Positions 13,753 to 59,121 of a DNA stretch of 64,000 nt are shown here, one piece after another (positions within the stretch are counted from its first letter, which is position 1; each line of letters starts with the position of its first letter). A model generated the notes under the pieces. The model was given only the letters and a program-made list of their open reading frames with translations. It searched no databases and was not told the DNA's origin. The DNA is taken from NCBI GenBank assembly GCA_902560625.1, contig CACEMD010000005.1, positions 1 to 64,000 of the forward strand, read 5' to 3'. The position numbers and the translations under genes are program-made. Source of the DNA: an uncultured Pelagibacteraceae bacterium (lineage in GTDB: Bacteria > Pseudomonadota > Alphaproteobacteria > Pelagibacterales > Pelagibacteraceae).

Positions 13753-14664
13753 TTAATGACCAAATCGTAAACTTTTATTCAATAGTCCATTTTCTAAAGT
13801 TTTTATCTCAATCTTTATACTTTTATTCAATCTCATATCTTTATTATCTTTCCATATGCCAGCCGCTAAATGCATAATTCCAATTTTATTATTTGGTAAA
13901 AATGGCTCAACAAAAGTTTGATTTTTTTCATCGTATTTTGGAAGTAGATTACTTGCAATCCAATTGCAGTTTAATGGTAAAAATTCTGTATTAACTTCAT
14001 CAATATAAACACTTATATTTATTGCTAAACCTTCTGATCCAAAAATATTTCCTGCACTTAAAGTTTTGCGCAAATTTTTTTGCCATATTTCCCAGCATTT
14101 AGAATTTTTTTCCAAAGAAAAAGTTCCTATATTAATATGAGGTGCAAATGCAAGTTTTCTTGCATTATTAATATCTATTTTAGAGGCTATTGCATGTTTA
14201 AAGTTCTGAGATTTAATTATAGCTAATTTACCATAAATCCATTTGACTTTGGACATCACTCTATAACCAGGTCCAATTGTTTGCGTAATACCAAGTTTTC
14301 CATCATTACAAGCTTTAAAGTAAAGATCTATTGAATTCCAATCGTTTACCCATGCATCACAATCTATCCAAAGATACTTTTCATAATTTGGAAAATATTT
14401 TGGCAAATATGCTCTTGAAACTTGACTTTTGAGCCATTCTTTTCCTTTTACTTTGTAATTTGGAACTTCAATATCCCATTCCGCTTTTTTTATTTCATCC
14501 ACTTTTTTTTTGAGTTCATTGTGTTGCTCCTCGGTCAAACCTGAGTCTAATACACAAATTGATACATTTTTACTTTGTTCAAATCTCTTAATGGAGTCTA
14601 TAAGCTCATTTAAAAGTTCAAAATAATTTGAGTCTGCAAGTGAAACTATAGCTTTATTTTTCAT
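13753..14664 (-). CDS. Glycosyltransferase (GT-A fold, GT8-like)
   Basis: 303 aa; YLWIDCDAWVNDWNSID DxD-type motif and GIMHLAAGIWKD near the C-terminus. Confidence 0.6.
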   Translation of the reverse strand: MKNKAIVSLADSNYFELLNELIDSIKRFEQSKNVSICVLDSGLTEEQHNELKKKVDEIKKAEWDIEVPNYKVKGKEWLKSQVSRAYLPKYFPNYEKYLWIDCDAWVNDWNSIDLYFKACNDGKLGITQTIGPGYRVMSKVKWIYGKLAIIKSQNFKHAIASKIDINNARKLAFAPHINIGTFSLEKNSKCWEIWQKNLRKTLSAGNIFGSEGLAINISVYIDEVNTEFLPLNCNWIASNLLPKYDEKNQTFVEPFLPNNKIGIMHLAAGIWKDNKDMRLNKSIKIEIKTLENGLLNKSLRFGH

Positions 14665-15459
14665 TTATAGTATATCTTCATGATCATCATTATCACTCAA
14701 TTGTGTCCTAAATTTACCTTCAGTTTTAAAATAATGAATTGAGCTTATTGGTATCATAAAGAGATATATAACTGCAGAAATTATTATTGTATTAAATGTA
14801 TATACTAATAATAGTCCAAAAAAGAATATAATTCCGAATAATAGAAATATACTCATTCTTCTAGGAACAATTATTTTTTTGAAAGAATAAGTTGGTACTT
14901 TGCTAATCAATAGGATCGAAATTATTATAAATAAAATTGGAACAAAAAGATTATTATTAATTACTGAAAAATTAAATTCACTTAAGTTTAAGATTAGTGG
15001 CATTAAAACTAAAACACCCCCTGCAGGTGAAGGGATTCCTTCAAAAAAGTTATCTCTCCACGATGGTTCTTCACTTGAATTTACATTAAATCTTGCAAGT
15101 CTTAATGCAACTGAAACAATATAAATTAAGCATATAAACCAGCCAATTCTTCCAAGTTCATTTAATTTCCAGAAATACATAACAAATGCCGGGGCTACTC
15201 CAAAGCTTATAACATCTGTCAAGGAATCTAATTCTTTACCTACTTTGGATGTACCCTTAATTAATCTAGCTATACGACCATCAAGTCCATCGATAATAGC
15301 AGCAACTAGAATCGCTAAAATTGAAATTTCATATCTTGCGTCTAACGCAAATTTAATTGAACTCAAACCTATACAAACTCCAACGAGAGTAAAAATATTA
15401 GGTAATATAATTCTTGTTTTCTTAGATGATACTAATTTAAAATTTTTTTTTGGTTCCAT
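14665..15459 (-). CDS. pssA: CDP-diacylglycerol--serine O-phosphatidyltransferase
   Basis: DGLDGRIARLIKGTSKVGKELDSLTDVISFGVAPA, the CDP-alcohol phosphatidyltransferase motif; next to psd. Confidence 0.95.
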   Translation of the reverse strand: MEPKKNFKLVSSKKTRIILPNIFTLVGVCIGLSSIKFALDARYEISILAILVAAIIDGLDGRIARLIKGTSKVGKELDSLTDVISFGVAPAFVMYFWKLNELGRIGWFICLIYIVSVALRLARFNVNSSEEPSWRDNFFEGIPSPAGGVLVLMPLILNLSEFNFSVINNNLFVPILFIIISILLISKVPTYSFKKIIVPRRMSIFLLFGIIFFFGLLLVYTFNTIIISAVIYLFMIPISSIHYFKTEGKFRTQLSDNDDHEDIL

Positions 15460-24333: not shown

Positions 24334-24509
24334 CTAGATTTTTTATATTAATTTTTATTTTTAATAAGATTTATAAACTACCTTTGGTTAAAGTTATCCA
24401 CAAGCACACTAAATCTTGTTTAAATGTTCTCGTTTTGATTCACTTTTGATTCAGTTACAGACTCAAAATACAACCTATTGACTACATTGTATAACTGTTA
24501 TATTAATGA

Positions 24510-24524
24510 GAACAAAATAAGAAC
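24510..24524 (+). promoter_or_regulatory. Candidate LexA box upstream of umuDC
   Basis: GAAC-AAAATAA-GAAC, the exact reverse complement of the GTTC-N7-GTTC alphaproteobacterial LexA consensus; 5 bp upstream of the likely umuD ATG at 24529. Confidence 0.65.
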
Positions 24525-24528
24525 ATTT

Positions 24529-24924
24529 ATGAAGCTAACTATACCTTATTATTTACACAAAGCAGGAGCTGGATTTCCATCTCCGGCAACAGATTATATA
24601 GAGGAAGATATAGATCTAAACGTCCACCTAATTAAGAATGTTCCAGCAACTTTTGTAATTAGAGTTCAGGGTAAATCGATGACAGATGTTGGTATTAATG
24701 ATGGTGATATACTGGTTGTCGACAAAAGTTTAACACCTAAAAATTTCTCGACAGTAATTGCAAATGTTCACGACGAATTAGTTGTCAAAAGCTTTGTTCA
24801 AGAAAGAGATAAAAAATTTTTAACTTCGGGCTCTAAAAACTTTGAAGATAGAATTTTAATTAATGAAGAAGAAGATATTTTTATTTGGGGAGTTGTAACA
24901 TATGTCATCCATTCAGTATACTAG
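24529..24924 (+). CDS. umuD: UmuD-like S24 peptidase (translesion polymerase V accessory protein)
   Basis: Start at the internal Met (MKLTIPYYLHKAGAGFPSPATDY); Ala-Gly cleavage site, Ser in QGKSMTD, Lys in ELVVKSF; followed by umuC. Confidence 0.9.
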   Translation: MKLTIPYYLHKAGAGFPSPATDYIEEDIDLNVHLIKNVPATFVIRVQGKSMTDVGINDGDILVVDKSLTPKNFSTVIANVHDELVVKSFVQERDKKFLTSGSKNFEDRILINEEEDIFIWGVVTYVIHSVY

Positions 24925-26179
24925 AAAGATAGCTCTAGTTGATTGCAATTCTTTTTATGTTTCTTGTGAAAGATTATTTAATCCAAAAATAAGAAAAAAA
25001 CCAGTTGTAGTTTTATCTAATAATGACGGCTGTATAATTTCAAGATCTAATGAAGCAAAAGCTTTAGGTATAAAAATGGGAGAACCTTATTTCAAGGCGA
25101 AAGATATTATTATTAAAAACAATGTCCAAGTATTTTCTTCAAATTACTCATTGTATGGTGATTTATCAAGAAGGGTTATGAGAACACTAAAAAGATTTAA
25201 CTCTGATATAGAAATTTATTCAATTGATGAAGCATTCATGGACTTATCAAATTTTTCTGATGCTGAAGTTGAAGAAGTTGGGAAAGAAATTAGAAATACA
25301 GTTTTACAATGGACAGGAATACCAACAAGTATTGGGATAGCAAAAACTAAAACTTTAAGTAAAGTTGCAAATCACATTGCAAAGAAAAAACAATCTGGTG
25401 TTACAAGTTTAATAGGTGTTGAAAATATTGATCCAATTTTAGAAAAAATAGTAATCAATGACATTTGGGGGGTTGGAAAGCAACTTACTAAGTTTTACCA
25501 AAAAAATGGAATTTATAACGCTAAGCAACTAAAAAATAAATCAAATACATGGATCAAAAAATGCTCAAATGTTTTAAGCTCAAGAACAGCAATGGAACTT
25601 AGAGGTATTCCTTGCATAGAACTTGAGAAAACCTCATCCAAGAGAAAAAGCTGTGTAGTTTCTCGTTCTTTTGGAAGAAGAGTTGAAAAGTTTCAAGAAT
25701 TAAAAGAAGCAGTTGCAAATTATTGTTTGAATGCATCAGAGAAAATAAGGTCGGAGTCTTTGGTTGCAAAAGCAATAACAGTTTTTGTTAGAACAAGTCC
25801 ATTTCAAAGAAGCTTTGGCTACTACTCAAATTCAAAAACTATTGATTTTCCAATTGCAACAAATAACAGCATTGAAACTGTTAAAGCTGCTATTTCTATA
25901 TTAGAAAGTATTTTTAAAAATGGTTACAGATATCAAAAAGCTGGTGTAATGTTAACAGGACTATCGAATGAAAGTATGAAGAAAAACTTATTCTCATCAG
26001 AAAAAGATGAAAAAATAAAAAAATTAATGAGATCAATAGATAATACTAATTATCGCTATGGAAGATCTACATTAAGCGTTGCAAGTGCAGGTGTTTATAA
26101 AAAATGGAATATGAGAAGAGAGCATTCGTCTAAAATCGATACTGCTGATTTCTATTGTTTACCAACAATAAAAGCCTGA
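24902..26179 (+). CDS. umuC: Y-family DNA polymerase UmuC
   Basis: IALVDCNSFYVSCERLFNPKIRKKPVVVLSNNDGCIISRSNEAKALGIKMGEPYFK, YSIDEAFMDLS, IPTSIGIAKTKTLSKVANHIAKK. Confidence 0.96.
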   Translation: MSSIQYTRKIALVDCNSFYVSCERLFNPKIRKKPVVVLSNNDGCIISRSNEAKALGIKMGEPYFKAKDIIIKNNVQVFSSNYSLYGDLSRRVMRTLKRFNSDIEIYSIDEAFMDLSNFSDAEVEEVGKEIRNTVLQWTGIPTSIGIAKTKTLSKVANHIAKKKQSGVTSLIGVENIDPILEKIVINDIWGVGKQLTKFYQKNGIYNAKQLKNKSNTWIKKCSNVLSSRTAMELRGIPCIELEKTSSKRKSCVVSRSFGRRVEKFQELKEAVANYCLNASEKIRSESLVAKAITVFVRTSPFQRSFGYYSNSKTIDFPIATNNSIETVKAAISILESIFKNGYRYQKAGVMLTGLSNESMKKNLFSSEKDEKIKKLMRSIDNTNYRYGRSTLSVASAGVYKKWNMRREHSSKIDTADFYCLPTIKA

Positions 26180-26185
26180 GTATTG

Positions 26186-28312
26186 TTATTTACCTATAAC
26201 AACTATAGTTAAATCATCACTTAATTTTTCAATTTTAGAAGATGATGTTATTTCTTTGGTAATATTATTAAGCTCGTCATTAATATTTTTGTTAAAATTA
26301 TTATTAATTATCTTTTTTGAGCCATCAATACCGATTTCTTGATTATCTTTATCTAAACTTTCAGATAGCCCATCCGTAAATGCATATAATCTATTGCTAT
26401 TTAAATTAATTTTATTAACAAAATAATTCGATTTTGTTTTTTGTATAATCACGCCTAGCGGAGGGGATTTGCTCTCAAATTCCTCGAAATTTCCATTTAT
26501 ATCTCTTACTAAAGCTGGTTGATGACCAGCATTTACCCAAGCTACTTCACCAGTAGATATGTTATAATTCCCAATGATTGAAGTTACAAACATTCCGCTT
26601 GTTTTAGTTAAAAACAGATCATTATTCATGTGAAATGCAATTTCATCTACATCAACTTTATCTCTGGACATTATTTCAAATAAAGTTGAAGCTTTAGCCA
26701 TAACCATTCCTGCGTGTATCCCTTTGCCAGCTACATCTGCAATTATAAAATAAACATTATCGTTATGAGGATAGAAACTAAAAAAATCTCCAGAAACTTC
26801 TCTTGCTGCTATATTTATACCTTGCACAGGATAATTTTTTAAATTTCTTTTTGGTAAAAAGTTTTCTTGGACTTTTACTGCTAACTTAACTTCTTTTGAT
26901 ATTCTTTCACGCCACTTATTTTTTTCTTCTTCGCTGGTCTCTAGCTTACTCATTAATTTATTATAATAAAGACCAATCACACCACCTGCAGTAAATGGAT
27001 CCTGGGGACCTCTAATTTTAAGATCGCCTGACTCAGACTGTTTATCTAAAACTGAAATTAGATCATGCTCAACTGAAACTGCATTGTGCTCAGCAATGTT
27101 TAATCCTAACTCCTCTTGAACAGGACTTACTCTCAAAGGATAAAATTTATTGACTATGCTCAAGCCAATGTAAGAAGAAACAAAAGTAAATAAACCGATT
27201 GATGTAATACCAATTAATTGAATTTTGATTTGTGAAAATCTATCTAAACCAGTATCTAAAATTGTTAAATCTGAAAATAGGCCAACAGCTAAAGTTCCCC
27301 AAATTCCTGCAGCTAAATGGACAGGGACCGCACCAACTACATCATCAATTTCAAAATTATTTAAAGTTTCATTTACAATAATTGCAATTATTGCGCCTAT
27401 TATTCCAACAAAAATTGAAATAACTGACGACATCGAATTACACCCAGCTGTGATTGCAACTAATCCTGCTAGTGGGCCTAGAATAATATAAAAAGGATCG
27501 GGCTTTTTATACTTGAAGTAAGAAATAGCTAAGCCTGTTAATAGACCAAATGCAGCTGCTAAAAATGTATTGATTAGAATTAATGGAACTGCTTCATCCA
27601 TTGCGCCATTACTTCCTCCATTAAAACCAAACCAACCAAACCATAGAATAAGAGTACCTAAAACTGCTAAAGGGAAACTAGATCCAGTAAACTTTCCTTT
27701 GTTTGCCTCTGAATATTTGCCTATTCTTGGTCCCAAAATAATAACTGCAGCTAAAGCAATCCATCCTCCTACAGAATGTACAATTGTGCTCCCAGCAAAA
27801 TCTACGAATCCTAATTCTGATAGCCAACCTATAGATTTTACTGAGCCGGTAAGATAGCTTGAAGACCATGCCCAATGACCAACTATAGGATAAATTATTC
27901 CAGTCGCTAAAACTGTCATAATCAAATAACCATTAAATTTCATTCTTTCTGCAACAGCACCAGAAATTATTGTTGCAGCAGTTGCAACAAACATTGCTTG
28001 GAAAACAAAGTAAGTCATATAATCAGCTTTTTCTGTTTTAAAGAAAAATAAATCAGTACCAAAGAAACCGTTATAAGAAGTACCGAACATAATACCAAAT
28101 CCAAAAATCCAAAAAATAACTACAGAAACACCAAAGTCTGCCGCATTTTTAAGTGCAACATTAATACTATTTTTATATCTAGATAAACCAGTTTCCATAC
28201 ACATAAAACCTGCTTGCATTATGAAAACTAAAATTGCACAATCAATCACCCACAATGTATCGATATTGTTAGTGAGAGTATCTATTACTTGTTTTGCCAT
28301 ATCATTATTCAT
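26186..28312 (-). CDS. Ammonium transporter (Amt) fused to a C-terminal SpoIIE/RsbU-type PP2C phosphatase domain
   Basis: 708 aa; N-terminal Amt (MQAGFMCMETGLSRYKNSINVALKN, FGWFGFNGGS, DDVVGAVPVHLAAGIWGTLAVGLF); C-terminal phosphatase motifs EVSGDFFSFY, IIADVAGKGIHAGMVMA, WVNAGHQPALV, PPLGV, YAFTDGLSES, LSDDLTIVVI. Confidence 0.93.
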   Translation of the reverse strand: MNNDMAKQVIDTLTNNIDTLWVIDCAILVFIMQAGFMCMETGLSRYKNSINVALKNAADFGVSVVIFWIFGFGIMFGTSYNGFFGTDLFFFKTEKADYMTYFVFQAMFVATAATIISGAVAERMKFNGYLIMTVLATGIIYPIVGHWAWSSSYLTGSVKSIGWLSELGFVDFAGSTIVHSVGGWIALAAVIILGPRIGKYSEANKGKFTGSSFPLAVLGTLILWFGWFGFNGGSNGAMDEAVPLILINTFLAAAFGLLTGLAISYFKYKKPDPFYIILGPLAGLVAITAGCNSMSSVISIFVGIIGAIIAIIVNETLNNFEIDDVVGAVPVHLAAGIWGTLAVGLFSDLTILDTGLDRFSQIKIQLIGITSIGLFTFVSSYIGLSIVNKFYPLRVSPVQEELGLNIAEHNAVSVEHDLISVLDKQSESGDLKIRGPQDPFTAGGVIGLYYNKLMSKLETSEEEKNKWRERISKEVKLAVKVQENFLPKRNLKNYPVQGINIAAREVSGDFFSFYPHNDNVYFIIADVAGKGIHAGMVMAKASTLFEIMSRDKVDVDEIAFHMNNDLFLTKTSGMFVTSIIGNYNISTGEVAWVNAGHQPALVRDINGNFEEFESKSPPLGVIIQKTKSNYFVNKINLNSNRLYAFTDGLSESLDKDNQEIGIDGSKKIINNNFNKNINDELNNITKEITSSSKIEKLSDDLTIVVIGK

Positions 28313-28315
28313 AAT

Positions 28316-29182
28316 TTAAAATTTTTGAACATTTTTAATATTTTCTAAAGATTTTTCATATTCATTATAATTTTCACGATTTGATATCTTGATTACAAAT
28401 ACATTGAATAAAATAGTTAAAAATAATGGTATCAGGGTAATAATCGACAAAAAAGGAAAAATAATAAATAAATAAATAATTAAAAATAGAATTGATCTAA
28501 CTAAAACATTTACTTTAAAAACTCCAATAATAGAAAAAGAATGTATTATTAAATTTTTAAAACTCATCTGAGAAGGTCCTGAATATCTTGCTCCTCTTAT
28601 TGATGGAACTATTGCTCTATCTTTTTCGATTTTGGCGAGAGATCCAGAAAAACTGCTCCAGGTTGCTTTATCATTGATCATTTTTTGAACTGTTGATTTT
28701 GGTAAGCATGTATAATTTCCAAATTTTATAGACTTACCGGTAAATGTGAATGTGAGTAATTTATGTATTAAATAACAAGTTTTAAAAAAGATACCTTCAG
28801 ATCTTTTAATTCTTTCTCCAACTATAGGTTTGTCTTTATAATAGTTTAAATTTTCAATAAATTGTTTTATTTCTTCTGGTCTATCCTCGCCATCACCATC
28901 CATAGGTATAACATAATCAAAATCCTCATTTTCATAAATATATTTTAAACCTGCAGCATTGCATCTTGCATGACCTCTGTTTTCCTTCATCGTGATTATT
29001 TTGATTGATAATATATTCTTAAAATCAACTTTTATTTCTGGTTTTGGATCAATTGATGCATCATCAATAAGTATCACTGAGAAATTATATTGTAGATTAG
29101 CAACGTTACTATCAATATTTTTTAATAGCTCAATTGCTGACTGCCAATCATTGTAAATTGGTATCAAGATTTTTATTTTCAT
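28316..29182 (-). CDS. Glycosyltransferase family 2 with C-terminal TM helices
   Basis: KILIPIYNDWQSAIELLKNI, VILIDDAS, GHARCNAAGLKYI, PMDGDGEDRPEEI; hydrophobic C-terminus. Confidence 0.88.
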   Translation of the reverse strand: MKIKILIPIYNDWQSAIELLKNIDSNVANLQYNFSVILIDDASIDPKPEIKVDFKNILSIKIITMKENRGHARCNAAGLKYIYENEDFDYVIPMDGDGEDRPEEIKQFIENLNYYKDKPIVGERIKRSEGIFFKTCYLIHKLLTFTFTGKSIKFGNYTCLPKSTVQKMINDKATWSSFSGSLAKIEKDRAIVPSIRGARYSGPSQMSFKNLIIHSFSIIGVFKVNVLVRSILFLIIYLFIIFPFLSIITLIPLFLTILFNVFVIKISNRENYNEYEKSLENIKNVQKF

Positions 29183-30659: not shown

Positions 30660-30720
30660 ATAATCCTATCTTGACACCTATTTATTGATGAATATATTCT
30701 CCCAATTCGAAAAATTGAGT

Positions 30721-31137
30721 ATGGTTAAAATCTCTAAAACTTATGTCCCAAAAGCTAGCGAGAAATATATGTGCGCTAAACATTTGGTTTTTTTTAAAAA
30801 AAAATTATTAGATTGGAAAATAGACCTTAAAAGAACAAGTAATGATGCATTGTTCAATAGTTCTTTAGATGATAACAGCACATCTGCAGATATAGTTGAT
30901 CAGGCAAGTTCATATACTGAAAAGAATGTTGAAATGAGAGCAATTAACAGACAAATAAAATTGATCTCTAAAATTGACTCTGCATTAAAAAGAATTCAGG
31001 AAGGAACTTATGGATTTTGTGAAGAAACAGGTGAGCCTATTGGACTTAAAAGATTAATGGCAAGACCGGTCGCAACTTTATCAATTGCTGCTCAAGAAAA
31101 GCATGAAAAAGAGGAAAAAGTTTACGCTGACCACTAA
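30721..31137 (+). CDS. dksA: DksA-family transcription factor (alphaproteobacterial Cys-poor type)
   Basis: IDSALKRIQEGTYGFCEETGEPIGLKRLMARPVATLSIAAQEKHE; DksA coiled-coil with DNALFNSSLDDNSTSADIVDQAS. Start is uncertain (30688 ATG or 30721 ATG). Confidence 0.88.
   Translation: MVKISKTYVPKASEKYMCAKHLVFFKKKLLDWKIDLKRTSNDALFNSSLDDNSTSADIVDQASSYTEKNVEMRAINRQIKLISKIDSALKRIQEGTYGFCEETGEPIGLKRLMARPVATLSIAAQEKHEKEEKVYADH

Positions 31138-56135: not shown

Positions 56136-59121
<2,986 letters not shown>

Follow-up and report, generated by a model that had tools for sequence, protein, structure and literature searches.

An ammonium transporter–PP2C fusion of SAR11 bacteria: a predicted ammonium switch and candidate protein phosphatase

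In the cases studied, SpoIIE-type phosphatases mainly target phospho-STAS proteins. The partner switches of RbaV, HmpV and BtrV act on motility or secretion, and none of them has a cognate sigma factor that is established (PMC8256260, PMC6495340). On the side of ammonium perception, Ks-Amt5 of Kuenenia stuttgartiensis is a sensor in which an Amt domain is joined to a histidine kinase (PMC5764959, PDB 6eu6). In the SAR11 strain HTCC1062, a phosphoproteome published in 2025 lists 1014 Ser/Thr/Tyr sites on 555 proteins; RsbW (SAR11_0057) is the sole Ser/Thr kinase reported, and no protein phosphatase is known (PMC13198564).

The window analysed here, a stretch of 64,000 nucleotides from an uncultured Pelagibacteraceae (SAR11) bacterium, encodes a protein in which an Amt domain is followed by a phosphatase domain of the SpoIIE type. 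The fusion is likely an ammonium receptor phosphatase that feeds a STAS/RsbW partner switch, most likely one directed at the pilus. It is probably an ammonium switch and one of the protein phosphatases that escaped the SAR11 phosphorylation study.

Architecture and conservation of the fusion

The fusion gene occupies positions 26186–28312 on the minus strand and is a single uninterrupted frame of 708 codons plus a stop. The ORF coordinates and every motif quoted in the preliminary description are correct, the strand having been left unstated there. A Pfam domain search recovered both domains within the one ORF: Ammonium_transp (PF00909) at residues 21–411 (E 8.8e-113) and SpoIIE (PF07228) at residues 518–706 (E 2.2e-31). 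The Amt domain, an ammonium channel or receptor fold, is encoded by 27080–28252, the linker (residues 412–495) by 26828–27079 and the SpoIIE/RsbU-type PP2C domain (residues 496–708) by 26189–26827, all on the minus strand. Homologs of the PP2C domain in the PDB include 3ke6, 3es2 and 3eq2. Structure prediction with AlphaFold2 places Amt, helix and PP2C in one chain with a mean pLDDT of 87.6. The model has a continuous signalling helix of 44 residues (442–485; 26858–26989, minus strand) that joins the Amt domain to the PP2C domain, with the pLDDT dropping to about 63 around residues 471–490.

The PF07228 domain carries four metal aspartates, D509, D526, D647 and D700, which correspond by motif to D610, D628, D746 and D795 of B. 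subtilis SpoIIE (PMC3517971). Their loss had been named beforehand as a result that would count against the reading; all four are present without exception in 56/56 type-A and 8/8 type-B homologs, 64/64 sequences in all. These two types are paralogs that often stand in tandem. The window's gene is type A, whose orthologs are about 76–95% identical to it, and type B is about 55% identical (for example L130:11213-13462 and L197:15012-17255). In type B the filter serine S234 is replaced by Ala or Thr in 8/8 copies examined, so its ammonium binding may differ from that of type A.

By protein search, 83 of 397 Pelagibacterales genomes carry the fusion. Three of them, G066, G067 and G068, are single-contig genomes, and all carriers belong to the window's genus except one, in the sister genus. 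This distribution rules out an assembly artefact and upholds the join as genuine; conservation across relatives, proposed earlier as a check, holds as well. The dN/dS ratios of the window's fusion against six orthologs run from 0.006 to 0.17 across the Amt, linker and PP2C parts, the linker being the most constrained of the three in most pairs compared. An inactive or decaying PP2C domain is ruled out by these ratios together with the invariant metal residues, and both halves of the fusion are under purifying selection. Outside SAR11, a survey of 399 Pseudomonadota genomes and of the 80 top-ranking loci from a GTDB pattern scan turned up no Amt-PP2C fusion.

Directly upstream lies a glycosyltransferase family 2 gene (28316–29182, minus strand). 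The fusion gene begins 3 bp past its stop codon, and the two are probably co-transcribed here. L136 and L141 preserve this adjacency, and the genes are also neighbours in L143. The 3' end of the fusion faces the 3' end of a UmuC-type Y-family polymerase gene (24902–26179). A LexA/UmuD-like S24 peptidase gene overlaps the polymerase gene, and the pair (24478–26179) is convergent with the fusion. A gene for a DksA/TraR-like zinc-finger protein also lies near the fusion, at 30685–31137.

Receptor ancestry of the Amt domain

The Amt part has the fold and pore motifs of the Amt/Mep/Rh family (Phe gate, Trp/Ser filter and twin His), and residues F108, W149, H179, F228, S234 and H332 are invariant in type A. 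A tree of 78 Amt domains places it inside a clade of 33 rows (support 98/87), every one an Amt extended at its C-terminus; the types read include GGDEF, histidine kinase, chemotaxis-receptor and PAS. The SAR11 assimilatory Amts fall elsewhere in this tree, and the Amt-PP2C proteins form a single monophyletic branch with support 100/100. Furthermore, the first part of the linker, to about residue 460–490, aligns with the linkers of Amt-GGDEF and Amt-histidine kinase proteins. With a signalling effector joined by a linker and a grouping among such fusions, the Amt part is, by its ancestry as read from the tree, a receptor-type Amt. The preliminary description had treated Amt proteins fused to histidine kinase, GGDEF or phosphatase domains as a known class of ammonium sensors. 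For histidine kinases that class is documented (PMC5764959); the fusions met in this analysis are Amt-GGDEF, Amt-HK, Amt-MCP and Amt-PAS. Phosphatase fusions could not be confirmed as an established part of it, and a literature search found no paper describing an Amt-PP2C fusion.

The best PDB matches found by Foldseek are Sd-Amt1, in its ON and OFF states, and Ks-Amt5. Sd-Amt1 of Shewanella denitrificans (PDB 8qj3, 8qj4, 8qpf) is the closest solved structure, with 47% identity and a TM-score of 0.93–0.95 by target length, and the aligned stretch reaches residue 473, within the linker. The intramembrane ammonium site of Ks-Amt5 is identical or conservatively replaced at 6/7 positions in the fusion: Q33, E40, N56, D59 and T114 are identical and T112 becomes S117, whereas T51 becomes F60. 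Two of the three pore plugs of Ks-Amt5, a protein that has lost transport, also differ (Y30 to M39 and F34 to L43), so the pore of the fusion may still conduct. E40 and N56 of this site are common among unfused Amts too. The site is therefore a subfamily trait and no proof of sensing, and it was set aside as such.

The STAS–RsbW pair and the pilus genes

The window's genome, 88% complete, is spread over 26 contigs that total 1,067,204 bases. The earlier statement that no STAS or RsbW gene lies within the 64,000-nt window is borne out, and a search of the remaining genome located both on another contig, C7, inside a type IV pilus cluster. The single STAS protein of the genome (C7, 4155–4454) carries the motif MDSSG, and its gene overlaps by one base that of the one RsbW-like kinase (C7, 4454–4867). 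The serine motif of the STAS protein and the N- and G-boxes of RsbW are intact; this genetically linked pair of a phospho-serine-motif STAS protein and an RsbW-type kinase has the make-up of an Rsb-type partner switch. In some relatives two adjacent STAS genes precede RsbW, one of them shorter at its C-terminus (L135:8821-9401, L140:3880-4460, L198 ~14487-15075).

The placement of the fusion gene and the STAS–RsbW pair on different contigs in the window's own genome counts against the switch reading. Four genomes (G000, which is the window's own, G016, G017 and G035) have the fusion at the LexA/UmuC–glycosyltransferase locus, and in G000 and G016 the STAS–RsbW pair lies with pilus genes, apart from the fusion. 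Across the order, RsbW is found in 79/83 fusion-bearing genomes versus 37/314 others. The Fisher p-value for this co-occurrence, 5.7e-49, ignores the shared ancestry of the genomes and so overstates the association; an RpoD tree of 28 genomes yields just four independent pairs, of which two to three agree with the association and none contradicts it, and so small a number cannot reach significance. The link is better supported by conserved gene order. Type-A copies share a contig with RsbW in 64 of 79 cases, 55 of these at a distance of 1.7–2.3 kb, and the distance to it is no more than 5 kb for 56/79 type-A and 21/23 type-B copies. In addition, among ten mostly single-contig genomes, SpoIIE-type PP2Cs occur in 8/8 with RsbW and 0/2 without. 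The STAS protein is a strong candidate for the predicted substrate of the fusion.

In the mechanism that we infer, the Amt domain would bind periplasmic ammonium, its presumed ligand. The resulting conformational change would travel through helix 442–485 to the PP2C domain and alter its predicted phosphatase activity, with a sign that is likewise a matter of prediction. The PP2C domain would then dephosphorylate the serine of the STAS protein (DSSG motif, S54/S55) that the RsbW-like kinase phosphorylates. The state of the STAS/RsbW pair would most likely govern how pili are assembled or pilins expressed, with no dedicated sigma factor involved. Two other phosphatases of the same genome would probably pass further signals on to this STAS protein: a GAF-PP2C (L124:15540-16823, on C7) and a CHASE2-PP2C (L125:59-2164, on C1), both SpoIIE-type.

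The pilus is suggested by the surroundings of the switch genes. The STAS–RsbW pair is flanked by prepilin genes and by genes of the PilC/PilB/PilQ/PilP/PilO/PilM cluster; its neighbours in the window's genome include, by Pfam, T2SSF (PilC), Secretin and PilM/PilN, and the contig also carries PilT- and PilY1-like genes some 16–25 kb away. Across 37 Pelagibacteraceae genomes, strong RsbW matches coincide with full-length PilB in 15 genomes and in G003, whose RsbW is cut off at a contig end; against the link, PilB occurs without RsbW in another family, f2. The GAF-PP2C gene stands beside a prepilin peptidase gene, and in G016 and G026 the island also contains the CHASE2-PP2C gene. Four SpoIIE-type PP2Cs are encoded in the single-contig genome G066. 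Two of them form the C-terminal part of ammonium transporters; the gene of the fourth has a globin gene on one side and a prepilin gene on the other, and a further prepilin gene lies on the far side of the globin. This globin-linked PP2C gene (L220:1240-2106, around C1:1165087) matches SAR11_1217/1218 of HVR4 in HTCC1062, and through its product oxygen or NO could possibly act on the STAS/RsbW switch as well.

Other outputs fit less well. G012 and eight further single-contig genomes, seven of these eight with RsbW, encode RpoD and RpoH and no third sigma factor, and a dedicated sigma factor was rejected as the output. One fusion-bearing genome, the sole case of its kind, has a weaker third match to sigma-70 region 2, in a 175-aa frame (G018:C4:10051-10230). 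A search of seven genomes found no GGDEF protein, and a c-di-GMP output of the SiaABCD or HsbRA-HsbD type was likewise rejected. A role in anti-phage defence was considered as well and gave no PADLOC match. The lack of a dedicated sigma factor and of GGDEF proteins in these genomes indicates an output that is neither SigB-like nor SiaD-like. Since such outputs do not fit and further PP2Cs lie among pilin genes, the type IV pilus is the best guess for the output, on circumstantial grounds; co-location with pilus genes falls short of proof. Much of the original interpretation survives, namely a fusion of the Amt-receptor type, an organism with little signalling and a partner switch as the likely target. 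A sigma-factor end of the switch is not supported, RpoD and RpoH being the only ones in the complete genomes checked.

The main rival keeps a sigma factor in play: ammonium-controlled RsbW would bind RpoD or RpoH and tune general transcription, as in Chlamydia, where a partner switch acts on the housekeeping sigma66 (PMC8256260). The complete RsbW-bearing genomes have RpoD and RpoH alone, which favours this alternative, and the rpoH-like gene of the window (56136–57023, plus strand), one of just two sigma factor genes that the genome yielded, would be a possible, if unsupported, target. RpoD and RpoH are, however, equally present in genomes without RsbW, and it is with the pilus cluster, not with sigma factor genes, that the switch genes are linked, leaving global transcription an unlikely output.

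The phosphatases of HTCC1062 and comparison with known systems

The gene order of G066 matches hypervariable regions of HTCC1062. One region holds autotransporters, a regulator, a sodium symporter, SAR11_0049/SAR11_0050 and pilins; a second holds a pilin, a globin, SAR11_1218 and a pilin (PMC2217521). In that source SAR11_0049 and SAR11_0050 are listed as 'ammonium transporter' and SAR11_1218 as 'phosphatase sigB regulator' (PMC2217521). G066 is apparently Candidatus Pelagibacter ubique HTCC1062. It carries both fusion paralogs, and by gene order these two Amt-PP2C fusions correspond to SAR11_0049 and SAR11_0050, a few kb from RsbW. Since the HTCC1062 study knew of no phosphatase, the fusions are candidates for phosphatases that it missed.

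The SpoIIE-type enzymes need not account for the bulk of the HTCC1062 phosphoproteome. A PP2C that broadly reverses many of its Ser/Thr phosphorylations, with the Amt domain tuning it by nitrogen supply, would suit the many sites, the one Ser/Thr kinase and the want of a known phosphatase (PMC13198564), as well as the four PP2Cs of G066. This is highly improbable given the preference of studied SpoIIE-type enzymes for phospho-STAS; moreover, G062 and G037 encode no SpoIIE PP2C at all, so a broad phosphatase is no general need of SAR11. Least probable is a self-regulated transporter whose attached phosphatase sets Amt activity with no signalling output, since its intact pore residues are set against the separate Amt and Rh-like proteins that SAR11 also encodes, the travel of the gene with STAS/RsbW and the grouping of its Amt part with signalling fusions instead of SAR11 transporters.

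The reading as a receptor phosphatase of a partner switch can be carried further, as a tentative proposal that falls a little short of an even chance. SAR11 type IV pili would be under a partner switch that uses neither a sigma factor nor c-di-GMP, the Amt-, GAF-, CHASE2- and globin-linked PP2Cs would together set the phosphorylation of one STAS protein, and these PP2Cs would be the protein phosphatases presumed absent from HTCC1062. The fusion is a candidate for this missing phosphatase that can be tested in a cultivable strain. It also offers a candidate route for ammonium sensing in SAR11 and for the role of RsbW in a cell without SigB.

The system set out here resembles the Bacillus RsbU/RsbP/SpoIIE phosphatases and their RsbV-RsbW-SigB switch in having a PP2C behind a sensor domain, a STAS protein with a conserved serine and an RsbW-type kinase. 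It differs in that the sensor is an Amt receptor and the complete SAR11 genomes checked have no SigB-like sigma factor. RbaV/RbaW of Rhodobacter capsulatus and HmpU/V/W of Nostoc punctiforme are likewise partner switches, with effects on motility or pili and no established cognate sigma factor (PMC8256260, PMC6495340), and differ in that no ammonium receptor is described for them. On the receptor side, Sd-Amt1 is a 644-residue chain with another C-terminal part, in which the search gave no PP2C match. Ks-Amt5 shares with the fusion an Amt domain with retained pore motifs and a C-terminal effector on a cytoplasmic linker, but its effector is a histidine kinase where the fusion has a PP2C domain. 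The fusion adds a phosphatase to the effectors known behind Amt receptors.
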